Both the position numbers and the translations under genes were made by a program. Positions 9,450 to 35,829 of a DNA stretch of 64,000 nt are shown piece after piece (the first letter of the stretch is position 1; each line of letters opens with the position of its first letter). The stretch is from Candidatus Krumholzibacteriota bacterium (lineage in GTDB: Bacteria > Krumholzibacteriota > Krumholzibacteriia > LZORAL124-64-63), in contig JAJRZA010000065.1 in assembly GCA_024275485.1 (NCBI GenBank), forward strand, positions 1 to 64,000, in the 5' to 3' direction. Below the pieces are notes generated by a model. That model had not been told where the DNA came from. It was given only the letters and a program-made list of their open reading frames with translations, and did not search any database.

Positions 9450-9602
9450 ACACTCGCGGGCCGGCCATTGGACCGGCTGAAGTTTCGATATTCCGATATT
9501 TTTTTCCCAAATACCGATGGTTTTCAGATCTCCCTGCGTTTGGTGGTTTGGACAGGGCAGTAAAATCTCAATCTACCGGGTCACAAACCCATGGAGAAGA
9601 AA

Positions 9603-10235
9603 ATGAAAAACTTGAAAACAAACCAGAAACGCGCTCTCGTTGTTGTCCCCATTTTCCTGATTATTCTGGCCGGCGCCGGCTTGGCTACCGCTCAGGGCAT
9701 GGGGCATGGCAAAGGCATTGGCGGTGGACCAGGCGATGGCCTTGATTGCGAGGGTCCCGGCTTCGGCCCCGGGCATCGCCTTGAAATGATGGCCCATCGG
9801 CTGGACTTGAGTGAGGACCAACAGGCCAACATCAAGAAAATCTTTGAAGAAGGTCGCAAGGACGGCCTGGAAAAGCGCAAGGAACTGATGCGCCTGCGCA
9901 ACGAGATGCACGGCGAAATGCTCAAGGACAACCCGTCGGAAAAAACAGTGCTCGGCATCAACAGCAAAATGGGTGATTTGAAAACCGAAATGAAGGCTTT
10001 GCGCCTGAAAGCCCGCTTGGCTGTCAGGCTGGCGTTGACACCGCAGCAGCGTGATCAGATGCTGTTGATGGGCGGCCCTGGCGGACACGATGGATGTGGC
10101 AAAAAAGGTGGACGGGGTGGACATCACGGCCAGCGCGGATCCAAGGGCTTTGGTGGCTGTGACGGTTCCGGAGGCGGCTCCTGCTCTGGTGGTGGTCCCG
10201 GTTTCCATCGTGGCGGAAATTTTGGCGGCGAATAA
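9603..10235 (+). CDS. Spy/CpxP-like periplasmic protein with Cys/His/Gly-rich tail
   Basis: A 210-residue exported protein. A signal peptide (about residues 1-31, ending A-T-A-Q) is followed by a helical region with the L-D-L-S-E-D-Q-Q and L-T-P-Q-Q-R-D-Q elements of the Spy/CpxP (LTxxQ) fold, used for periplasmic chaperoning or metal/stress sensing. The last 50 residues are rich in glycine, histidine and cysteine and could bind metal. ATG 9603 is preferred over the in-frame ATG at 9591 because GGAG lies six bases before it. It is first in a likely operon with an ECF sigma factor 27 bases downstream. Confidence 0.8.
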   Translation: MKNLKTNQKRALVVVPIFLIILAGAGLATAQGMGHGKGIGGGPGDGLDCEGPGFGPGHRLEMMAHRLDLSEDQQANIKKIFEEGRKDGLEKRKELMRLRNEMHGEMLKDNPSEKTVLGINSKMGDLKTEMKALRLKARLAVRLALTPQQRDQMLLMGGPGGHDGCGKKGGRGGHHGQRGSKGFGGCDGSGGGSCSGGGPGFHRGGNFGGE

Positions 10236-10262
10236 CAGAGCAGGCAATAGAGGGTGCAGTCA

Positions 10263-10823
10263 GTGCCAAGAAACACCAGTGATGATTCTCTCATGGCCGC
10301 CGTGGCAAGAGGCGAGGAGGCGGCTTTCCGCCTCCTCGTCCAGCGTTGGGAAAACCAGATACGGGCATTCCTTATCCACATGCTCTCGTCGGTGGAAGAA
10401 GCCGAAGACCTGACCCAGGATACCTTTGTTCAGGTGTTTCGCAAAGCCGATCGATATCAGGGGGAAGGGAAGTTTCGTAGCTGGTTGTTTCGCATCGCTG
10501 GGAATCTGGCCCGCAGCAAATTGAGGCGTCGGAAAATCCTGGGCTGGGTGAGTTTCAACCCCGACTTTCATGACCGGGCCGATCATGGCGAAAATCCGGC
10601 TTCGCAGTTGGAAAGAAAAAGGGAAGCGGAAATGGTACAGGGAGCCATGGCGAAGTTGCCTCAGCGACAACGGCAGGCCCTGGTTCTTCATCGTTTCCAG
10701 GGAATGAAGTACAAAGAAATAGCCGAGGCCATGGATGTGACGGTCCCTGCGGTGGAATCACTAATTCAGCGGGCCATGGGGCAACTGCGCAACATGCTAC
10801 TTGGAAAGGCGGACAGGTCATGA
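10263..10823 (+). CDS. ECF-type RNA polymerase sigma factor
   Basis: About 186 residues with the two ECF domains. Region 2 contains D-L-T-Q-D-T-F and F-R-S-W-L-F-R-I-A-G-N-L, which contact core polymerase and the -10 element. Region 4 has L-P-x-R-Q-R-Q-A and a helix-turn-helix ending with V-P-A-V-E-S-L-I-Q-R-A. The GTG at 10263 sits six bases after GAGGGTG; an upstream GTG at 10254 would add three residues. Its stop overlaps the anti-sigma start (ATGA), a classic arrangement. It probably controls its own operon in response to an envelope signal. Confidence 0.9.
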   Translation: MPRNTSDDSLMAAVARGEEAAFRLLVQRWENQIRAFLIHMLSSVEEAEDLTQDTFVQVFRKADRYQGEGKFRSWLFRIAGNLARSKLRRRKILGWVSFNPDFHDRADHGENPASQLERKREAEMVQGAMAKLPQRQRQALVLHRFQGMKYKEIAEAMDVTVPAVESLIQRAMGQLRNMLLGKADRS

Positions 10824-11311
10824 CCAACGAACACCAAATTTTCCATGACCGGATCCAGTCCTGGCTATCGGGGCAACTGGGCAGTGGGGCTTTGGAAAAA
10901 TTCGAAACTCACCGGAAGGAATGTCCCGAATGTGCCTCACAGGCTCAAGCCGAAAAAGAACTGTGGGAATTGCTTGGCGAAGGTCGGATTCAGAACCTGG
11001 GCCCGATTCCCAGTGTATGGCCCCAAATTCAGCAGAGGGTTTTCGATTCCCCGGGCAATAACCTTCTTTTCGGAAATGGTTGGTTCTTTGGCGGCGGCCA
11101 AGTGGTTCGCGCCTCCCTGGCAGCCTGTGCCGTGGCAGCCGGTCTGATGGTCGGGGTCTTGATTCCGGGACTTTCGGGTCGAGCCAGTGCCGATGACATC
11201 AACAGTGACTTGTGGGTGAGCGAAGCTTCCTGGCTCGACGAAACGGCCACTGATGGCTTGGCCGGCATTTGGCTGAGCCCAGGTTTGTCCGACGAAAGTG
11301 ACGGATCATGA
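10820..11311 (+). CDS. Membrane anti-sigma factor with zinc-finger-type N-terminus
   Basis: A 163-residue single-pass protein. The cytosolic N-terminus has the H-x3-C-x2-C zinc anti-sigma signature (F-E-T-H-R-K-E-C-P-E-C-A, histidine near residue 31), which binds and holds the partner sigma factor. A hydrophobic segment (about residues 95-118) is followed by a short periplasmic tail. It overlaps the sigma gene by four bases upstream and the second CpxP-like gene by four bases downstream, so all three are co-translated. The two CpxP-like neighbours are natural candidates for the periplasmic sensing part. Confidence 0.88.
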   Translation: MTNEHQIFHDRIQSWLSGQLGSGALEKFETHRKECPECASQAQAEKELWELLGEGRIQNLGPIPSVWPQIQQRVFDSPGNNLLFGNGWFFGGGQVVRASLAACAVAAGLMVGVLIPGLSGRASADDINSDLWVSEASWLDETATDGLAGIWLSPGLSDESDGS

Positions 11312-11877
11312 AAAAAATTCTGGTTCTCGTATTGTTGCTTTCGGTGGGTTTGAACATCGGATTGGGAGCTCGAATGCTTGGTGACAGCAAGCACAAATAC
11401 CGTGACCAACCAGGTTGGGGCATGCGCAGTGGATTCGGTTCGGATCGAAATGGAGGCCATGGCCGCGGTGGCGGCGACCGGGATGGAACTTTCTGGCGCG
11501 GGGTGATGGAACGGCGGTTGAACCATGTGGCCGAACAGTTGGGACTGGATGAAGAGCAGGCCGAGTCTTTCAAAAAGGCCCATAAAGTGGCTGCGGAAAA
11601 GTTCCTTGAACAGAGGACCAAGGTCATGGAGGCTCGTGGTCGACTCAGGGATGCTGCCTCAAAACCGGTTTTTGAAACATCATCTCTCAGACCCCTGATT
11701 GCTGAAGTTGGCCGTCAACAGGCAAAATTGGACTCCATGGTGACAGAAACAATGCTCCAGGAGATGGAAATCCTTGATGAAGATCAGCGCCGGCTTTACA
11801 TGAGCATCCTGCCTTTGAATCGATTTGCAGGGCGCAGTGGCGGCCCGGGGCACCCGCCAAGGCATGGGGGTCGTTGA
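11308..11877 (+). CDS. Second CpxP/CnrX-like periplasmic sensor-type protein
   Basis: A 189-residue protein with an N-terminal hydrophobic signal or anchor (K-K-I-L-V-L-V-L-L-L-S), a Gly/His/Asp-rich linker (about residues 40-70) and a helical bundle with L-G-L-D-E-E-Q and I-L-D-E-D-Q-R-R-L-Y elements typical of the heavy-metal-resistance/CpxP superfamily. The C-terminus is again rich in G, H and R. Its ATGA overlap with the anti-sigma gene suggests it modulates that protein, comparable in layout to the CnrYXH nickel/cobalt system. The metal or stress sensed cannot be read from the sequence. Confidence 0.78.
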   Translation: MKKILVLVLLLSVGLNIGLGARMLGDSKHKYRDQPGWGMRSGFGSDRNGGHGRGGGDRDGTFWRGVMERRLNHVAEQLGLDEEQAESFKKAHKVAAEKFLEQRTKVMEARGRLRDAASKPVFETSSLRPLIAEVGRQQAKLDSMVTETMLQEMEILDEDQRRLYMSILPLNRFAGRSGGPGHPPRHGGR

Positions 11878-24309: not shown

Positions 24310-24318
24310 TGGTATAAT
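24310..24318 (+). promoter_or_regulatory. Extended -10 promoter (TGGTATAAT) for the CHAT gene
   Basis: A perfect TATAAT (24313-24318) is preceded by TGG, the extended -10 element, with no good -35 at normal distance. Transcription would begin near 24325, which excludes an ATG at 24317 inside the box and supports the ATG at 24368. Confidence 0.6.
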
Positions 24319-24367
24319 GAACCATTGCACATGTGACTCAGGTACCAACTGCAGAGACGGGAAACCA

Positions 24368-27300
24368 ATGCACCGTTGTTTTTGCATCTTGTTAGGGCTT
24401 TTTTGTATTGTTCCGGTTCTGGCGGCTGGGGCAATATCCAGTGAAAGCTCCCTTTCCGACCGTTTTGCCAGTGAAATCCAGGCCCTGGGCGGTCTTGTGG
24501 ACGACGGTTTCTATCCTGATGTTTTGGAAAAAGGGCAGGCTCTGCTTTCCGGTGTTCGCGCCGAGTTCCCCCATGGTAGTTTCGACGAAGCCAAGATTCT
24601 CGACTTCATGGTTCATGCATCCTACCGCAGTGGTCGGGTAATGGACCCCCAGGCCATCATAATGGGAGAACAGGCCATCCAAATAAAGGAGACTGTTTTT
24701 GGCCCGGATGATCCGGAAACCGCCAACAGCCTGATGCATCTGGGCAACCTCTACATCCAACGTTGGGAATGCGAAAAATCGATTCCCCTGCATGATCGGG
24801 CGCTGACCATTCTGGCTCTGGCCGGGCCTGGTTACGATTACCAGCGCGCCACGATTCTCAGCAGTCAGGGAGTAGCTTACCGCCGCCTGGCCCAGGCCGG
24901 GAAAGCTTTCGAACTCTACAGTCAGGCCTTGGCCATCCAGGAGCGGGTCCTGGGCCCGGAGCACCCCGACGTAGCTTCCATTTTGAACAATCAGGCCAGT
25001 GTTCTTGCTGATCGCGGGGATTATTCCACCGCAGAAAAACTACACCGGCGGGCCATTGCCATCCGGGAGGCGGCCCTGGGGCCGGATCATGAGTGGGTGG
25101 GCGAATCGGCCAACAATCTGGCCGGCATTCTGAGCTATCTGGGCAAATACAATGAGGCTCTGGAATATCAAGAGCGAGCTGTGCGCATCTTCAAACTCAA
25201 ACTCGGCACCGAGCACCCGCGTTACTGGACTACCAAGCTGAATCTGGGCCTTGCCTATCTCGACATGGGTGACCCTGGCGGGGCCCTGCCCATCTGTCGG
25301 GACGTCTTGCAGAACATGAGAAAACTGTATGGTGAGGATAGTCCGCAAACCTGTTACGAGTTGGATGCCCTGGCCGGTTGTTACTACGGCCTTAAGGACT
25401 ACGAGTTGGCCCTGGAACTCTATTCCCAGTCATTGCGCATAGGTGAGACCTCTTATGGCCAAGGCAGTTATGAAACCGCTGAAACCATCAAGGAGCAAGG
25501 CAAATGCCTCATCGCCCTGGATCGACTGGATGAGGCAGTGGAAAGGCTGAACTACAGCTTGGCGATCATGGCAGGAGATATTGACGGAGACAACGGTATT
25601 CTGTGTGGGCCCTTGAATCAGCTGGCGGAGCTGCATTTGAAGAGAAAGGAGTATGATCAGGCCCTGGTTCATGCCCAACGGTCCAGTTTTTTGAGCACCA
25701 GGGATCTTGGGACTGGGCACCCGCTCCTTGCGGAGAGCAGCCTCCTGGAAGCACGAGCACTCCTGGGCCAGGGAGATAAGGAAGGGGCTCTGGACCATGC
25801 CCTGCTTGCCGAAAAAATCAGCCGTCGACATCTGCAACAGACCATGCAGGTCCTGTCTGAAGATAGGGCCCTCGATTACGCGGGTATCCGTGTCGATGGC
25901 TTGGATTTGGCGCTCTCGGTCCTGACCGATGGGGAGTCGGGCAGACGGGTGGCCAGGGTTTGGGATGCGGTCATCCGCTCACGGTCGATGGTTCTTGATC
26001 AGTACACCGCCCGCAACCGAATTCTGAGTGACAGGGGTGATTCCCTGGCCGCCGCCCTGATGGACAGTTCGCTGGTGTTGCGGGAGCGCCTTGCCAATCT
26101 CGGCATGCGCGGCCCCGGTTGGGAAGACGTATCGGTTTATCACCAAATGCTCACCGAAACAGAGGCTGATCTGGAGACCATTGAAAGGCGGCTTTCCCTT
26201 CAAAGCTCGCAATTTCTCCACTGGCAGAAGGATCATCAACTGGGATTTGATCAGGTGTCCCGGTCTCTGCCGGCGGCAAGCACACTGATCGCCTTCGTGC
26301 GTTGTGCCGACGCTGCGGGATACGAAACCTACAAGGTGTTTATCCTGGATGACCCCGAAGCTGAACCGCGCATTCTGAATCTTGGCGCTGCCGAGCGCAT
26401 CGATGCCAAGGTGGCCGCCTGGCATGATCAAGCTGCTCTGGGGACCCGCCACCGTACCCAGTACAAACCCGAGCAAGCTTCCATCGTCGCTTCCCGGGGT
26501 TTTCTCATGGTGTCCAGCAGCGCTGAGGATCAGTTGGCATCCTACCTGAAGGCGGGGTCTGACCTGCGCCGGCTGGTGTGGGATCCGTTGAAGGGTGAGG
26601 TCGGTGGTAATGATCAGATTTTTGTTGTCCCCGATGGCAGTATTCATTTGCTGAACCTGGCAGCCCTACCTGAAGATGATGGTCGCTTTTTGGTGGAATC
26701 GGATCACCTTTTTCACATCCTCGTTTCTGAAAAAACCCTCGCCATGCCACAGGCGTCAACGAACAAGCCCCTGCGTCTGTTGGCTATCGGTGGCGTGGAC
26801 TACGACCTGACCCGCGGTCCCCAAGGGTTGACTTTTCCACCCCTTCCTCATGCCCGCACGGAAGTTGAGCAGTTGGGCGCCATTTGGTCCGCAAAGGACG
26901 GCAAGACCACGCTGTTGATGGGCTGCGAGGCTACGGTGGAAAATTTGAAGAAGGAAATAGCCGGGGCAGGGATTCTACATCTTGCCACTCACGGGTTCTT
27001 TCTGCCTGCTTCCAGGGGTATTGAGGGGACCGGTCAAAATGACAATCCCCTGGTGCGAACGGGACTGGTTCTGGCCGGAACCGGAAATCTTCAGCAGGCG
27101 ACAACAGGTTGCTACGATGGGATTGTCACCGCCGAAGAAGTCTCGGCCCTGGATCTGAACGGAGTCCAATGGGCCGTTCTGTCTGCCTGCAACACTGGTT
27201 TGGGTGAGTTGGATACACGGGGCGAAGGTGTGTTCGGCTTGCGCCGGGTCTTTGCCCTGGCCGGGGCACGCACCGTCATCATGAGCCTGTGGTCCGTGGA

Positions 27301-27481
27301 AGACGAATCGTCCCACCAATGGATGTGTGCCCTTTACAAGGCACATTGGCAAAATGGCTTGGACACGGCCGCCGCGGTGCGTAAGGCTTCCCTGGAGGTA
27401 CTTGCCCTGCGTCGTGATGCCGGGTTGAGCGTTCACCCCTACTACTGGGCAGGCTTTGTTGCCTCAGGAGATTGGCGATAG
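24368..27481 (+). CDS. Exported TPR-CHAT protease
   Basis: 1037 residues. An N-terminal signal peptide (C-I-L-L-G-L-F-C-I-V-P-V-L-A-A-G) is followed by about eight TPR units with the 42-residue kinesin-light-chain spacing (residues about 95-480, with recurrent L-G-P-x-H-P). A helical linker follows, then a C-terminal CHAT domain (about 740-1037). CHAT domains are caspase/separase-like cysteine peptidases. The dyad is visible as histidine 875 in L-A-T-H-G and cysteine 941 in L-S-A-C-N-T-G, followed by the family block G-A-R-T-V-I-M-S-L-W-S-V. The signal peptide implies activity outside the cytoplasm. It is followed after nine bases by an ECF-like sigma gene, suggesting a signalling unit. Confidence 0.88.
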   Translation: MHRCFCILLGLFCIVPVLAAGAISSESSLSDRFASEIQALGGLVDDGFYPDVLEKGQALLSGVRAEFPHGSFDEAKILDFMVHASYRSGRVMDPQAIIMGEQAIQIKETVFGPDDPETANSLMHLGNLYIQRWECEKSIPLHDRALTILALAGPGYDYQRATILSSQGVAYRRLAQAGKAFELYSQALAIQERVLGPEHPDVASILNNQASVLADRGDYSTAEKLHRRAIAIREAALGPDHEWVGESANNLAGILSYLGKYNEALEYQERAVRIFKLKLGTEHPRYWTTKLNLGLAYLDMGDPGGALPICRDVLQNMRKLYGEDSPQTCYELDALAGCYYGLKDYELALELYSQSLRIGETSYGQGSYETAETIKEQGKCLIALDRLDEAVERLNYSLAIMAGDIDGDNGILCGPLNQLAELHLKRKEYDQALVHAQRSSFLSTRDLGTGHPLLAESSLLEARALLGQGDKEGALDHALLAEKISRRHLQQTMQVLSEDRALDYAGIRVDGLDLALSVLTDGESGRRVARVWDAVIRSRSMVLDQYTARNRILSDRGDSLAAALMDSSLVLRERLANLGMRGPGWEDVSVYHQMLTETEADLETIERRLSLQSSQFLHWQKDHQLGFDQVSRSLPAASTLIAFVRCADAAGYETYKVFILDDPEAEPRILNLGAAERIDAKVAAWHDQAALGTRHRTQYKPEQASIVASRGFLMVSSSAEDQLASYLKAGSDLRRLVWDPLKGEVGGNDQIFVVPDGSIHLLNLAALPEDDGRFLVESDHLFHILVSEKTLAMPQASTNKPLRLLAIGGVDYDLTRGPQGLTFPPLPHARTEVEQLGAIWSAKDGKTTLLMGCEATVENLKKEIAGAGILHLATHGFFLPASRGIEGTGQNDNPLVRTGLVLAGTGNLQQATTGCYDGIVTAEEVSALDLNGVQWAVLSACNTGLGELDTRGEGVFGLRRVFALAGARTVIMSLWSVEDESSHQWMCALYKAHWQNGLDTAAAVRKASLEVLALRRDAGLSVHPYYWAGFVASGDWR

Positions 27482-27490
27482 GAACTGATC

Positions 27491-28105
27491 TTGCCGGATA
27501 TTCATCAAATCGAACTTGCAGCACGAGATCCGCAAGAGGAGGCTCTGGTCAGAGGTTTGTCCGAAGGGGATCCTCTGGAGGTGGAGAAATTCATCAATAG
27601 ATCCCACCGTCCTGTCTATGCCATGACCGCTCGACTGACCTCCGACCCGGATATGCGCCACGACTGGAGCCAGGAAATCCTGCTGAAGATACTCCAGGAA
27701 ATGTCTGCCGGCCGGTTCGTCTACCAGCGGCCCGGCTGCTTCTGGGCCTGGTTTCAGATGCGCACCAACTTCCTGCTGATCAATCTTTACCACCAGCACA
27801 AAAAACATACCGAGCGTTGGAGCACCGGCGAAGTCGGGGCGGCCATTGTGGATAAGGTACCCATGAACAGGGGCCAGGATCCCTTGCGGTTGCTGGAGGA
27901 AGTCGAGTCCCGGCGAGTGGTAGAGGAATGCCTGCAGGAGTTGCCCAACGAAGAACATCGGCGGGCTATGCACTTGTTGCTCTTTCAGGACCAGACGTAC
28001 CAGGAGGTGGCCGATGCCATGGATGCTCCCCTGAACACTGTTCGTTCCTGGATTCGTCGGGCTCGCATCACCATGCGGCAGTGTGTGGCCGGAAAGCTTG
28101 CCTGA
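27491..28105 (+). CDS. ECF-like sigma factor adjacent to the CHAT protease
   Basis: 204 residues with weak but complete ECF organisation. Region 2 contains H-D-W-S-Q-E-I-L-L-K-I-L in place of the usual D-x-x-Q-E motif. Region 4 has L-P-N-E-E-H-R-R-A and a helix-turn-helix Y-Q-E-V-A-D-A-M followed by L-N-T-V-R-S-W-I-R-R-A. The TTG start follows AGGAACTGATC; the CHAT stop is nine bases upstream. It is more divergent than the ECF factor at 10.3 kb. The gene after it encodes a membrane protein that could restrain it. Confidence 0.82.
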   Translation: MPDIHQIELAARDPQEEALVRGLSEGDPLEVEKFINRSHRPVYAMTARLTSDPDMRHDWSQEILLKILQEMSAGRFVYQRPGCFWAWFQMRTNFLLINLYHQHKKHTERWSTGEVGAAIVDKVPMNRGQDPLRLLEEVESRRVVEECLQELPNEEHRRAMHLLLFQDQTYQEVADAMDAPLNTVRSWIRRARITMRQCVAGKLA

Positions 28106-28206
28106 CCTGAAACAATCGAAGAAAAATCATCTGCAACTTTGCCAGCCAGGAGCTGGTCTTTCTTTTGAGCGAAACAATTTAATCTAAAATACAGGGAAGT
28201 AGTCCG

Positions 28207-29055
28207 ATGAGTGACCTTTCACCGATTGAGCTTGAAAAATTGATCCTGGGTTACGAGGAATTGGGAGTTGCCGACAAGGCGGTTGCCGACCGTATCCTGA
28301 AACGGCAGTCTGAGTTGGCGGCCAAGCTGAAATGGCACCAGGACAAGGAGAATCAGGCCCGAAACGCCGCTTCCTGCACCGGGGAGTTCTGGAACGACGA
28401 ATACCTGGATGCGGCCGATGAGCAGGCCCAACAGGAGAGTCTGCGCAAGATACTGGCCGCCATTGAATGGCATCAGGAAACTCGACCATCTGGCCTGGCC
28501 GGTCGCCTGCGTAGCGGGATCAAGTGGATGTTGCCGCTGGCGGCCTTGCTGGCCTTGGCCATCCTGTTGCCCCGCGGTGGTACACCGGAGATGTTGCTAC
28601 AGGATCTCACTGTCACACGGATCGAGTTGAACACCGATGGCAGCCGGGGGATCAATCATCCCGCCCCGATCGATGGCGTTCTGCACAGCGGTCAGGCTTT
28701 TGCCCTGGATTTCACTCTGGTCGACCAGGCCTACGTGGTGGTCTACCACGTGGGGCCGGCGGGTCGGGTTTCCCGGGTATTTCCCGTGTCCATCACAGGA
28801 GCTGTTTCTCGCCACGATGGAGGCAGGGAACATCAGATCCCAGATCCGGATTCGGGCGAAGTTTGGATCCTTGGCACCGAAACGGGTACCGAAAGCTTCC
28901 TGTTGGCGGTCGGCAGTGCATGGCCGACGGGTCTTGAAAGCATAAGGGTCGACTCCGGTTCTGCGGACCGCGGCAAAATTTTGGCAAGTCTGAGAAACCA
29001 ACTCGAAGACATCATGCCCCAGGTCGATCTCTATGAATTTGACCATGTAGATTAG
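28207..29055 (+). CDS. Single-pass membrane protein with DUF4384-like extracytoplasmic domain
   Basis: 282 residues: a helical, charged cytosolic segment (1-100), one membrane helix (about 103-122, L-P-L-A-A-L-L-A-L-A-I-L-L-P) and an extracytoplasmic beta-rich domain resembling DUF4384 (S-G-Q-A-F-A-L-D-F-T-L-V-D-Q-A-Y-V-V-V-Y, followed by R-V-F-P). No zinc-finger anti-sigma motif is present. The position after sigma and CHAT genes and the topology fit a sensor or anti-sigma, but this is inference. The 101-base gap upstream has a short stem (CCAGC/GCTGG) and an A/T-rich stretch. Confidence 0.6.
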   Translation: MSDLSPIELEKLILGYEELGVADKAVADRILKRQSELAAKLKWHQDKENQARNAASCTGEFWNDEYLDAADEQAQQESLRKILAAIEWHQETRPSGLAGRLRSGIKWMLPLAALLALAILLPRGGTPEMLLQDLTVTRIELNTDGSRGINHPAPIDGVLHSGQAFALDFTLVDQAYVVVYHVGPAGRVSRVFPVSITGAVSRHDGGREHQIPDPDSGEVWILGTETGTESFLLAVGSAWPTGLESIRVDSGSADRGKILASLRNQLEDIMPQVDLYEFDHVD

Positions 29056-29188
29056 TCAGGTCGCTGCTGACTTATCACCGGCGGTGGGTTTTTTAGGGCC
29101 GAATGCAACTTCCGGCCCGGAAGATTGGTGTTTAAATGGAAACCGATTATCGATTATCGGTACCAACAACTGGAAAGGGAGAACCGGC

Positions 29189-29725
29189 GTGAAATTATTT
29201 CCAATCCCCAAGCTACTGCTATTCTGCCTGTTGCTGTTGTCGCTGCTGTGGGCAGTATCGGCCTCGGGCACCCAGGTTAAGTTGGTGACCCCAAGCAACG
29301 GCTCGGGATCACTGAGCAGTGCCTCCTACCAGGTGAAACTCACGGTGGGTCAGGTAGCAAGTGGGCAATCCCAGTCGGTCAGCTACATCATGAATACCGG
29401 GTTTTGGAATATGCTGGGGTCTACCTACCTGGTCGCAGTGGATGACGGTGTATTTCCCGGTCTCCGCAATCAGCTCTTCAAAAACTATCCCAATCCCTTC
29501 AATCCCAGTACCCGCATCAGTTTCAGCCTGGATGCGGAAGCCGAGGTGCGCATTGACCTCTTCGACCTGAAGGGACGGAAAGTGGATACGCTGCTCCAGG
29601 AGGTTCGACCAGCAGGGCCTCATTCCATCACCTACCAGCCGGCAAATCTGGCCAGTGGGGTTTACTTCGTCTTGATGCGGGCGGGTTCATTCCGCGCCAC
29701 TCAACGGATAATGTTGGTCAAATAA
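29189..29725 (+). CDS. Small secreted protein with FlgD-like C-terminal sorting domain
   Basis: 178 residues: a signal peptide (L-L-L-F-C-L-L-L-L-S-L-L-W-A-V-S-A), a short beta-rich region with the Y-Q-V-K-L-T-V-G-Q element often seen before such tails, and a C-terminal sorting domain with N-Y-P-N-P-F-N-P and G-V-Y-F-V. GTG 29189, eight bases after AAGGGAGA, is chosen; the frame is open further upstream to 29084. It begins a run of four exported proteins. Function is unknown. Confidence 0.75.
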   Translation: MKLFPIPKLLLFCLLLLSLLWAVSASGTQVKLVTPSNGSGSLSSASYQVKLTVGQVASGQSQSVSYIMNTGFWNMLGSTYLVAVDDGVFPGLRNQLFKNYPNPFNPSTRISFSLDAEAEVRIDLFDLKGRKVDTLLQEVRPAGPHSITYQPANLASGVYFVLMRAGSFRATQRIMLVK

Positions 29726-31858: not shown

Positions 31859-34390
31859 ATGTTGAAAACCATTCAAATGGTGATTGTGGCCGGCCTTTTG
31901 ACGGGCTTTTTACAAACTCCACCGGCAACCGCCCAGCAGGGTACCTGGAGCCGTCTCAGCGGAAGGACGCTAACGGAATTTCCGCCGGGCAAGGAAGGTG
32001 TCACAGCAGAGGGTGAACCATGGCATGAAGATATCCGCCGGGTGACTGAAGGGTTGAACCCCTTTCACACGCCTGAGGGGTATCGGGAAGCTCTCCAGAG
32101 TACAGGGATGAGCGACCATCTCGCCGGTTCTTCGCTTTCGGCTCCCGACAGCAGGGATTCCTGGAGTCAACGGGGGCCCATAGGTGCTTTCAGCACCGCT
32201 CCGCGCAACGGACGTATTTCCGGAATCCAGATCATAGATCCGGATAATTCTTCGCCCTCGGTTTTTGTCGGTTCCTGCCAGGGAGGGCTCTGGGTGGCCC
32301 AAAACTCGGGTGTCGATGGGGGTATCTGGGAGGACATCGGTCGCTTGTTGCCAAATCCTTCGGTGCGTGGTTTCGCAGTGGACCCGGCCAATGACCAGCA
32401 CATCATCGTCGGCACCGGGGACCATAAAAGATACGACGGCTCGGGAATGTATGAAACTTACGATGGCGGCAACAGCTGGTGGCCCAAGTCGACCCCGTCG
32501 TCACCCAGTTATTATTATCGGGTCATTTATCAAAACCGGCCCAGTTCCCCTGCGCATCAATATGTAATGGCGGCCACATCGGCGGGGCTGTTTCTCTCAA
32601 GCAATCGCGGGACAACCTGGTACAGTGCCCATTATATGGACGGCGATCCCACTACCACGGGGTTGTGGACCGACCTTCTTGAGCACCCGACCCAACCGAA
32701 TATCCTTTATGCCTGTGTTTCTGGTCGCTTGTACCCGGAATTGAACGGGGTTTACAAGTCCGAAGACTATGGCGAGAACTGGTTTCACCTTCCCGATACG
32801 ACTCTTCCCCAGGGGAACGAGTGGGGTCGTGCCTCATTGGCCATCTGCCGATCAACTCCTGACGTGCTAGCGGTTCTGGTGGAAGGTGGCGGCCTAATCC
32901 AGGGTGTCTACAAAACCACCGATGGAGGGGGAAATTGGACAAACATTACCGGATCCCTCGCAGGATTCGGTGGAGATCAGATCGTGCACGCGCAGGCCAT
33001 CGCCATTCGTCCGACCAACCCGAATCAAATCTTTGTGGGAGCGGTCTATCTCGCCATGAGCAACAACGGGGGCGCATCCTGGGCCCTTGGCGAAGATACC
33101 GGAATCAATTGGGGACACTCAGATATTACCCAACTCTATTTTTCGGATGTTTTGTCCGATGACACCTTGTGGATCTGCAACGATGGCGGTGTCTACTATC
33201 ACGACTTCAACACCGGCGGTGATTTCAGCTTTATCGGCGGACCGGTGACCGGCTTGGCTTGTTCGGAGATCGACTTTATGGATGCCGACCGGGATGTGCG
33301 CGTCATCGGTCTTCAGGACAACGGTATCCTTTTTTCCAACAACCATGGCCAATCCTGGTATTTTGAGTCCTCCGGCGACGGGGCCGATGTGGAGATCTAT
33401 GACCCCGTGGCGGGAGATTATATGTACAACGCGGGATCCTATCCTAGTGAACCTCAGTGGCACACTTTCCGCAAACCCTACGATAGCTGGGCGACCTATC
33501 TTCCCAGTCCCTACCCGGTGTATATGCCTCGCCTGACTCACCAAACCGACACGGGGCTGATGGCCACCAACGATCAACAATCCATCTACGCCATGGATGC
33601 GGAATCGGGAACCACCTGGAATCAGATCATCACTGATCTTCAAACCGATGAATACTTTATCCGAAGCGTCACCGCGAGCCAGGCGGCCGATGGGGCGTAT
33701 TACGTTCTCTATTGGGATTACAACCCCGGCGATCTGACTGTGGTGCGCGAGGTTGCCGGTGAGGGCTGGGTCACTACCCACACCGAAAACATCATGGGCA
33801 ACGGCCAGAGGATCACCAGTGTCACGCCATCACGGGAATGGCCAGGCGAGGCCTGGGTCACCCTGGCTGGCACCGCGGGCCAGGGCAAGGTCATGCACAC
33901 GACGGATTTCGGCGTTTCCTGGATGGATCTCACCAACCAGCTGAGTTCAGTCACGGTTGTGGAAACCATCGAGGTCCAACCATTCAATCCCCTGGTCCTT
34001 TTTGTGGGTACCAACCTGGGAATGTTCCGTTCCACCGACGGAGGCCAAAATTGGCTTCCCTTCCAAACCGGTCTGCCAATCGGGCGTTGCAAGGAGCTGC
34101 GTTTTGTCATTGATCCCTTCAATGTGCAGCACACTTTGGAATTGGCCATGGACGGTCGGGGATTGTGGACCATGCCCATCGCCTCGCCGCGTATTATTTT
34201 TGTGGACAAGGATGCCACCGGACCGGAGGCCGGCTCACGCGAACACCCTTACCACTCCATCGGCAGTGGAATTCAAAATGCTCCGGCAGGGGCGATCGTG
34301 GCCGTGCGGTCCAACACCTACATCGAACCATATATTTTCTCGGGCGACGTGCAGATCATGACCTGGAACGGGAGGACACTGATCAGATGA
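31859..34390 (+). CDS. Secreted Asp-box (BNR/sortilin-like) beta-propeller protein
   Basis: 843 residues with a signal peptide. Many Asp-box motifs (D-G-G-N-S-W, R-G-T-T-W, Y-G-E-N-W, D-G-G-G-N-W, N-G-G-A-S-W, D-G-G-Q-N-W) mark two or more beta-propellers, as in sortilin (VPS10) and photosystem assembly-like proteins. The last 60 residues resemble the first turns of a pectin-lyase beta-helix (F-V-D-K-D-A-T-G, then H-P-Y-H-S-I). ATG after AAGGGGGCACC. It overlaps the metalloprotease gene by four bases, so the two are probably made together. No catalytic role is visible; adhesion or binding is likely. Confidence 0.8.
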   Translation: MLKTIQMVIVAGLLTGFLQTPPATAQQGTWSRLSGRTLTEFPPGKEGVTAEGEPWHEDIRRVTEGLNPFHTPEGYREALQSTGMSDHLAGSSLSAPDSRDSWSQRGPIGAFSTAPRNGRISGIQIIDPDNSSPSVFVGSCQGGLWVAQNSGVDGGIWEDIGRLLPNPSVRGFAVDPANDQHIIVGTGDHKRYDGSGMYETYDGGNSWWPKSTPSSPSYYYRVIYQNRPSSPAHQYVMAATSAGLFLSSNRGTTWYSAHYMDGDPTTTGLWTDLLEHPTQPNILYACVSGRLYPELNGVYKSEDYGENWFHLPDTTLPQGNEWGRASLAICRSTPDVLAVLVEGGGLIQGVYKTTDGGGNWTNITGSLAGFGGDQIVHAQAIAIRPTNPNQIFVGAVYLAMSNNGGASWALGEDTGINWGHSDITQLYFSDVLSDDTLWICNDGGVYYHDFNTGGDFSFIGGPVTGLACSEIDFMDADRDVRVIGLQDNGILFSNNHGQSWYFESSGDGADVEIYDPVAGDYMYNAGSYPSEPQWHTFRKPYDSWATYLPSPYPVYMPRLTHQTDTGLMATNDQQSIYAMDAESGTTWNQIITDLQTDEYFIRSVTASQAADGAYYVLYWDYNPGDLTVVREVAGEGWVTTHTENIMGNGQRITSVTPSREWPGEAWVTLAGTAGQGKVMHTTDFGVSWMDLTNQLSSVTVVETIEVQPFNPLVLFVGTNLGMFRSTDGGQNWLPFQTGLPIGRCKELRFVIDPFNVQHTLELAMDGRGLWTMPIASPRIIFVDKDATGPEAGSREHPYHSIGSGIQNAPAGAIVAVRSNTYIEPYIFSGDVQIMTWNGRTLIR

Positions 34391-35829
34391 AATTCCTACT
34401 GGTGATATTATTGATTTTGGTACCCTTGGCCTGTTCAGGCCAGCTGCTTTGGTCGGTTGAAGATGGGCAGTTGGTGATTGATCAGGCCCTGTTGGATGAC
34501 GTGGTGGCAAAAAGTTCTCGGCAATTCGATATAGCCGTCGCTGGTGGCAAGTTTCGTGTGGACGTGGACGAAGTCACCGCACCCAATTTGGGCGTGACCA
34601 GTGTTTCGGGCCGCATTGATGGCCATCAAGAGTCCTTTTTCCTGCTCTGCCGCACCGAAAACGGAACCGCTATCGCCTTTTTTCGGACACCCGACGGTTC
34701 CGCCTACCGCCTGGACCATACAAAAGGCCAGGACCAGGTTTATGCAGTTGAGGTGGGGGAATTTGAGAGTTGCGCCGGAGGTTTGGAATCGGGAGCGGTG
34801 AGGCGGGGGGGAGATCCTCACCGCCATCTTCCGGCACGACCTCTGGACCCGGACAAATCCCGTTCAGTGGCCGACGACGGCAGCCGACACGACATCGTCA
34901 TCGGCTACACCCCGGCGGCTGAAGTCTACATGGGAGGGTGGGACTACATCCGCGCCGAGGCCCAGCTGGCCGTTGACGCTGCCAATCTGACCTACAACAA
35001 CAGCCAAATTGCCTCAGAATTGCGCCTGGTGTTCGTCAAATCCACGGATTACGAAGAGATATCCGCCTGGAACTTCAACGATCATTTGTCCTATTTGTGG
35101 TATCCGAACGACGGTCATATGGATGACATGCTGCCCGCCAGGGAATCGGTGGGTGCGGACTTTGTCTCGGTGCTCATTGATGGTCGGGATTTTTACGGAG
35201 ATTTGATTGCCTGTGGCGTGGCCCCGGTCATGCAATCGGACATGGTCAACCAGGGTTTTCAGGATCTGGCCCTTTCGATTGTCTCGGTTCAGTGCGCCAC
35301 GACGAATTGGTCCCTGGCCCATGAGGTGGGGCACAATCGGGGTTGCGCCCACGATCGGGATAACGCGACTATTGATGGGGCCTACTCCTATTCTTACGGT
35401 AACCTCTTTGCCTGGGACGAGGTGGAGGAAACCGGATTACGCACCGTCATGGCCTATGATCATTTCTATTTTCCTCACGAGCGTGTCCCATATTTTTCCA
35501 ATCCCGAAGTCGAATTTGCAGGCGACGCCACCGGGGTTTGGCCGGGTCTCGAAGGTGAAGCCCACAACGCTCTTACCCACGACAACACCTCTTCCGTGTG
35601 CGCCGCTTTTCGCGGTGAGCGAACCTTTGTGAAATTTAGCTACAACGGGGGATACTACGATGGCCTGATCCTGTTTCCGTTCCCAACCATTGCCGATGCG
35701 GTGGCCGGTTCGCGGGATGGAGGGAATATCGTGATCCAGGAGAGCAAAGCGGATTTTACCGGGGTTCTTAATGATCCTCGATCTTTCATCAGCGATGCCG
35801 ATGGGAGCATAGTTCTGGGCGGATCCTGA
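34387..35829 (+). CDS. Secreted metzincin-type zinc metalloprotease
   Basis: 480 residues with a signal peptide (L-L-V-I-L-L-I-L-V-P-L-A-C-S, possibly a lipobox with cysteine at about residue 15). The zinc site H-E-V-G-H-x5-H-D lies at residues 312-323 and is followed by the Met-turn T-V-M-A-Y-D (M355), typical of reprolysin/M12B-like metzincins. A pro-region probably precedes the catalytic domain. The last 60 residues again look like a truncated beta-helix (F-P-T-I-A-D-A-V-A). ATG 34387 within the overlap with the propeller gene is chosen over a longer frame from 34165. Confidence 0.85.
   Translation: MKFLLVILLILVPLACSGQLLWSVEDGQLVIDQALLDDVVAKSSRQFDIAVAGGKFRVDVDEVTAPNLGVTSVSGRIDGHQESFFLLCRTENGTAIAFFRTPDGSAYRLDHTKGQDQVYAVEVGEFESCAGGLESGAVRRGGDPHRHLPARPLDPDKSRSVADDGSRHDIVIGYTPAAEVYMGGWDYIRAEAQLAVDAANLTYNNSQIASELRLVFVKSTDYEEISAWNFNDHLSYLWYPNDGHMDDMLPARESVGADFVSVLIDGRDFYGDLIACGVAPVMQSDMVNQGFQDLALSIVSVQCATTNWSLAHEVGHNRGCAHDRDNATIDGAYSYSYGNLFAWDEVEETGLRTVMAYDHFYFPHERVPYFSNPEVEFAGDATGVWPGLEGEAHNALTHDNTSSVCAAFRGERTFVKFSYNGGYYDGLILFPFPTIADAVAGSRDGGNIVIQESKADFTGVLNDPRSFISDADGSIVLGGS

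Follow-up and report, generated by a model that had tools for sequence, protein, structure and literature searches.

An exported TPR-CHAT protease encoded with an ECF σ factor and a putative zinc-less membrane anti-σ factor in Krumholzibacteriia: a candidate protease-gated switch

We analyzed a stretch of 64,000 nucleotides (referred to as the window here) from a Candidatus Krumholzibacteriota bacterium (GCA_024275485.1, contig JAJRZA010000065.1; genome G000 and contig C49 in our labels), focusing on three consecutive genes that encode a TPR-CHAT protein, an extracytoplasmic function (ECF) σ factor named SIG, and a membrane protein (Table 1). An earlier note on this DNA had described them as an exported protease with an intact His-Cys dyad, an ECF-like σ factor, and a membrane protein with a cytosolic region and a DUF4384-like outer domain but no zinc motif, and had proposed a protease-controlled σ switch. 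The placement of all three open reading frames (ORFs) on the plus strand was confirmed, as was the gap of nine bases that separates the CHAT stop (27481) from the SIG start (27491). The CHAT start needs correction from 24317: the ATG at that position falls within a TATAAT box (24313 to 24318) that is part of TGGTATAAT, which we take to be an extended -10 promoter element, and the ortholog at locus L040 begins at an equivalent MHRSF, so that the ATG at 24368 is the more likely start. Boxes similar to this -10 element occupy the equivalent position in L040, L043, L044, and L045, and the region upstream of CHAT shows no SIG promoter motif (see below).

Table 1. Features of the CHAT-SIG locus, in window coordinates.
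Feature	Position	Strand	Basis
Extended -10 element TGGTATAAT, upstream of CHAT	24310..24318	+	Sequence; housekeeping type, without SIG motif
Probably exported TPR-CHAT protease, dyad H875/C941	24368..27481	+	PF12770, TPR, invariant His and Cys, model
ECF σ factor SIG	27491..28105	+	TIGR02937, PF08281, profile match to PDB σ factors
Predicted ECF-type promoter GCAACTT-N15-GGTCTT, upstream of anti-σ gene	28133..28160	+	Conserved in the gaps of orthologs
Putative membrane anti-σ factor: cytosolic helical N terminus, one transmembrane helix, outer immunoglobulin (Ig)-like DUF4384	28207..29055	+	Pfam, model, homology to zinc anti-σ clade
Second promoter copy, upstream of exported-protein gene	29105..29132	+	Also in L040, L041, L054, L188
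Predicted SIG target: exported protein, type IX secretion system (T9SS)-type sorting tail	29189..29725	+	PF18962 (35.5 bits), TIGR04183 (36.1 bits)

The first protein scored 208 bits against PF12770 (cut-off, 24) and 203 bits against TPR_12 and, judged by the family cut-off and the presence of the dyad, is a CHAT peptidase. The dyad is intact, as the earlier note had it: H875 (CAC, 26990 to 26992) and C941 (TGC, 27188 to 27190; numbering of the 1,037-amino-acid form) are invariant in 13 of 13 sequences, and the corresponding domain residues, H268 and C334, in 40 of 40 CHAT domains, which suggests selection for catalysis. The protein also looks exported, again in agreement with the note, since a crude home-made rule assigned signal-peptide-like N termini to 80 of the 87 CHAT ORFs with an intact 5' end. 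Its structural model (predicted local distance difference test score, 83.6) is closest to Csx29/Craspase chains, with Csx29 as the best fold match (Z score, 27.1; root mean square deviation, 6.9; 615 residues aligned), and also matches separase and DdvA. A search of the PDB with a single CHAT-domain sequence returned no matches; the family profile did find matches, the best being 8rot (1.7e-14), which by its title is the transmembrane anti-σ factor DdvA.

SIG is well supported as an ECF σ factor by its sequence, and the earlier assignment was borne out. It matches the NCBIfam model sigma70-ECF (TIGR02937) over residues 31 to 198 with 54.2 bits (cut-off, 42.9) and Sigma70_r4_2 (PF08281) above the cut-off with 35.5 bits, while PF04542 gave an E value of only 0.04. 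The profile of its family matches full-length ECF σ factors in the PDB at 2e-15, and the nearest named match, 79% identical, comes from a metagenome-assembled genome of Candidatus Krumholzibacteriia.

The third protein has the architecture that had been described for it, with a DUF4384 match of 31.8 bits and a model that places four N-terminal helices (residues 6 to 14, 21 to 33, 35 to 56, and 69 to 91) before a transmembrane segment at about residues 105 to 120 and a predicted outer Ig-like domain. The observation that it lacks a zinc motif is likewise true, "H-x3-C-x2-C" being absent from the window protein and its seven close orthologs; it does not exclude an anti-σ role, given that five of five members of the deeper-branching sister clade (L049 to L053, where L052 is a second copy of the set in the source genome) carry this motif after a shared L-x-L-x-x-E-x-L motif. 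The zf-HC2 model matched two of these five proteins below its cut-off (E values of 0.0026 and 0.0041) and 14 of 40 motif-bearing relatives. To compare the clades we used profiles of the zinc-less clade (A7), the zinc clade (A9), and other CHAT-linked zinc anti-σ factors (A8), which replaced a partly circular hhalign comparison of profiles A1 and A5 that had members in common; A5 was built from motif-selected ORFs, and its invariant H, C, and C are thus uninformative alone. A7 and A9 aligned over their full length (E value, 1.6e-27) and A9 matched A8 at 1.4e-11, while the direct link between A7 and A8 is weak (4.9e-5 over the 35 columns from 11 to 45, on the zinc region). It is therefore well supported by sequence comparison that the membrane protein is a class I-type anti-σ factor descended from zinc-binding forms whose ligands were lost, a point missing from the earlier note that supports it as the likely partner of SIG, which it would bind. 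The class I anti-σ domain (ASDI) is a three-helix bundle with an additional fourth helix, and its zinc motif, where there is one, spans helices 2 and 3. In class I anti-σ factors, zinc and non-zinc members mix and motif loss is common, according to excerpts of PMC7406223, and the absence of this optional motif is thus compatible with an anti-σ role. A PDB search with the anti-σ sequence gave chance-like matches alone. The match of its profile to 3hug_B (E value, 0.84), presumably the zinc anti-σ factor RslA, lies on the zinc place and was too weak to count.

Synteny of the three genes had been set beforehand as a check, and they are indeed conserved together. A search with SIG across 80 genomes of the phylum yielded 16 matches scoring more than 90 bits, two from the source genome, spread over 14 genomes, with all remaining matches below 64 bits, and we compared the 15 loci besides the window. 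CHAT adjoins SIG in the window order in eight (L040, L041, L043 to L047, and L053), one of which, L043, stops before the membrane gene; three have the order SIG-membrane-CHAT (L049 to L051), and two retain SIG and the membrane gene but are cut by contig ends (L052 and L054). The remaining two are a degenerate locus, L042, and L048, which has SIG alone. The complete set thus occurs at ten further loci, seven as CHAT-SIG-membrane and three as SIG-membrane-CHAT, and its recurrence in two gene orders argues that the arrangement is not due to chance: the three genes are conserved as a unit in Krumholzibacteriia. Full-length members of the membrane protein's profile were found only beside this σ factor, together with some fragments, whereas weaker matches were mostly to DUF4384-like parts of other proteins of ∼600 amino acids. 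The latter form a separate family that is widespread in many genomes (e.g., G012:C113:9999-10469).

The divergence of the three proteins is also correlated. Over 10 loci, the correlations of the distance matrices were 0.92 for SIG and the membrane protein, 0.88 for SIG and CHAT, and 0.87 for the membrane protein and CHAT, values reached in none of 2,000 permutations, although species relatedness is still included in them. The degenerate locus (L042; G065:C89 5878-7660, on a 222-kb contig) has lost CHAT residues of about 208 to 1024 and everything past about residue 106 of the anti-σ factor, i.e., its membrane and outer part, while SIG is intact. That both the catalytic domain of CHAT and the outer part of the anti-σ factor are gone is what a link from CHAT to the anti-σ factor predicts, although this is a single case, in an assembly of unstated type.

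CHAT and ECF σ genes also go together beyond this set, at most CHAT genes of the lineage, a recurrence that the earlier note did not mention. In genome family f1, 34 of 38 genomes have CHAT, with 127 matches. From these we examined 95 genes, the rest being mostly truncated or weak, plus L047 from another family. An ECF σ factor lies within 1.5 kb of 79 of these 96 CHAT ORFs (78 of 95 without L047) and of 53 of the 62 with 1.5 kb or more of flanking sequence on each side. The source genome contains 23 Sigma70_r2 and 20 Sigma70_r4_2 matches at 29 distinct places in 3.98 Mb, so that a nearby σ factor would be expected by chance in ∼5% of cases. Among the 79 σ factors, 29 are downstream on the same strand, 29 divergent, 19 upstream on the same strand, and two convergent; a motif-bearing membrane ORF follows in 43, and Pfam found Sigma70_r2 in 53 of the 70 submitted. 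In the source genome, all five CHAT genes have a σ neighbor if contigs C57 and C64, which carry the second copy, are joined, a join that rests on gene order since the ends do not overlap, and four have one otherwise. Its three other CHAT genes (L055, L057, and L058) each lie beside a different ECF-like σ factor and an H-x3-C-x2-C membrane protein. CHAT ORFs of ∼1,580 amino acids were seen at L064 and L068, with no σ factor found in the fetched stretch, and loci L007 to L009 gave no CHAT match.

Part of the likely SIG regulon can be read from the sequence, which had no place in the earlier account. In the window and its orthologs, the gap from SIG to the membrane gene contains the motif GCAACTY-N14-16-GGTSTT or one very like it, and in several cases the motif recurs upstream of the next exported gene; in the window, the GTG start of this predicted target (29189) is 56 nucleotides past the second promoter copy. 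We found eight sites in the source genome versus two for the reversed pattern, and 45 versus 18 in eight genomes with a window-type SIG, compared with 32 versus 34 in 26 genomes without SIG. For the context of the sites, we took 17 of the 51 sites found in 12 SIG genomes, after dropping two that were listed twice (both from G040), together with 20 of the 32 from the 26 genomes that lack SIG. Nine of the 17 unique sites precede an anti-σ gene (three) or an exported ORF (six), compared with none of the 20 (Fisher's test, 2e-4). The site is also kept by orthologous targets, namely, an exported protein of 626 amino acids (three genomes) and another of 211 amino acids (two genomes); this comparison drew on 20 stretches that were mostly chosen by eye, and the context count is the fairer one. 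The predicted targets include the sorting-tail protein and a beta-lactamase-family protein. L048 has the promoter on both sides of SIG, upstream of a Sortilin-type exported gene homologous to window positions 31859 to 34390. Of the SIG genomes, G065, G071, and G072 have no motif site.

Regulated proteolysis of class I membrane anti-σ factors is known from RseA, DegS, and RseP. We consider it probable, at roughly 60%, that the locus encodes a comparable protease-gated switch in which the exported TPR-CHAT protein cuts the membrane anti-σ factor and thereby releases SIG. CHAT would be made from its housekeeping-type promoter, which, having no SIG site, places it better as an input than as an output, and would then be exported into the compartment of the DUF4384 domain outside the membrane, while the cytosolic N-terminal domain of the single-pass anti-σ factor holds SIG. 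On meeting an envelope signal or partner, the TPR solenoid would activate CHAT, which would cut the outer part of the anti-σ factor (site 1). An RseP-type site-2 protease, for which the genome has an M50 candidate gene (PF02163, 216.5 bits), may complete the cleavage, and free SIG would transcribe the anti-σ gene, as negative feedback, and the exported-protein genes. Of the switch proposed in the earlier note, co-conservation, an exported-looking CHAT, and a likely σ partner found support; the cut by CHAT, its site, and the signal remain inferred.

Several observations weigh against this scheme. Seventeen of the 96 CHAT ORFs have no σ factor within 1.5 kb, and in family f5 a σ factor is near only 10 of the 21 CHAT genes examined from 34 listed, showing that the linkage is strong but not universal. 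L048 (G003:C591 3608-7117) keeps SIG and its promoter with neither CHAT nor anti-σ gene nearby, so SIG can exist without them. Pfam gives no anti-σ match for the window membrane protein itself, and the fold search with its whole model listed no anti-σ fold; this search was dominated by the Ig-like outer domain and is uninformative on the N-terminal part. No conserved cut site was identified, and both binding and cleavage are deduced.

The σ/anti-σ pair could also be real while CHAT binds, holds, or shields the outer domain without cutting it, as may be the case for the fused TPR-CHAT of DdvA, which was solved as a transmembrane anti-σ factor with a CHAT domain. The predicted outer Ig-like sandwich would be a plausible docking module for this, but the invariance of His and Cys in all 40 CHAT domains points to catalysis, and we regard a purely binding role as unlikely. 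It seems less probable still that CHAT works in the envelope on other substrates and shares the operon because it answers to a common stress, the anti-σ factor being opened by a different protease or by a ligand. Proteases are often encoded in envelope stress operons, and CHAT and σ factor form separate transcription units in the divergent loci (29 of 79); yet CHAT has no SIG promoter and is hence no obvious output, and the paired losses at L042 would not be expected. Given that the modeled fold is nearest to Csx29, an anti-phage or CRISPR-linked module akin to Craspase has to be considered. We hold this to be very improbable, since the predicted targets are exported proteins and CHAT itself looks exported, and PADLOC gave no match at an E value of 0.01 for CHAT, SIG, the membrane protein, and the next two gene products, in a search that did not extend to a Cas7-11/gRAMP effector in the genome.

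The preferred reading, cleavage of the anti-σ factor by CHAT, has partial precedents, of which Csx29-Csx30-CASP-σ and DdvA are experimental. In excerpts of PMC10028731, type III-E CRISPR loci combine the TPR-CHAT protease Csx29, the inhibitor Csx30, and the ECF σ factor CASP-σ, with inhibitor cleavage proposed to free the σ factor; the present locus likewise encodes a TPR-CHAT protease, a putative inhibitor, and an ECF σ factor together, but Craspase is RNA guided, whereas here CHAT looks exported and the inhibitor would sit in the membrane and carry an outer domain. At the sequence level alone, anti-σ profile A1 found no Csx30 among PDB sequences to an E value of 10. The same excerpts describe RseA/DegS/RseP-type proteolysis of class I membrane anti-σ factors, which shares with our locus a single-pass anti-σ factor beside an ECF σ factor, a protease outside the membrane, and an RseP-type protease in the genome; the site-1 protease, however, would be an operon-encoded caspase-like CHAT rather than a DegS-type serine protease. 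DdvA of Myxococcus xanthus (PDB 8rot) keeps the CHAT His and Cys (LATHG and LAACEGG) and is, by its entry title, a transmembrane anti-σ factor, with the ECF partner DdvS (excerpts of PMC4374960 and PMC12288465). Its title and molecule name place CHAT and anti-σ factor in one chain, unlike the separate ORFs here, and DdvS controls an antiphage island according to the excerpts of PMC12288465, in contrast to the exported-protein targets predicted for SIG. None of our 96 CHAT ORFs has H-x3-C-x2-C in its first 220 residues, as a fused anti-σ-CHAT protein might, although a zinc-less fusion would escape this count. For ECF54, compared by description, excerpts of the review PMC8999054 report CHAT, carboxypeptidase, and subtilase proteins as conserved context but no anti-σ factor, where the window has an anti-σ homolog.

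A CHAT-σ linkage is thus partly known already from ECF54 and from Csx29/Csx30; what is new here is a CHAT that looks exported and forms a chain of its own, paired with a membrane anti-σ factor that lacks zinc ligands, as well as a readable regulon and recurrence across the lineage. We found no paper in the open-licence PMC literature on an exported CHAT beside an ECF σ factor and a membrane anti-σ factor. More tentatively, and with considerable doubt on our part, an exported TPR-CHAT acting in trans on a membrane anti-σ factor may be a widespread form of ECF gating in Krumholzibacteriia, and the unit of TPR-CHAT, inhibitor, and ECF σ factor may be older, the source of both the fused DdvA and Craspase (Csx29/Csx30/CASP-σ). 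The best-known caspase-like CHAT proteases come from CRISPR and conflict systems. The CHAT-ECF-anti-σ sets described here are candidates for the origin of Craspase's σ branch, and they offer a simple setting for asking whether CHAT proteases cut anti-σ factors outside the membrane.

Elsewhere in the window, positions 9591 to 11877 hold a conventional ECF/zinc anti-σ locus, in which an ordinary ECF σ factor (10254 to 10823) precedes a small H-x3-C-x2-C membrane protein (10820 to 11311) and two short proteins that look exported flank the pair. At 34165 to 35829 lies a Reprolysin-type metalloprotease ORF, downstream of the Sortilin-type gene.

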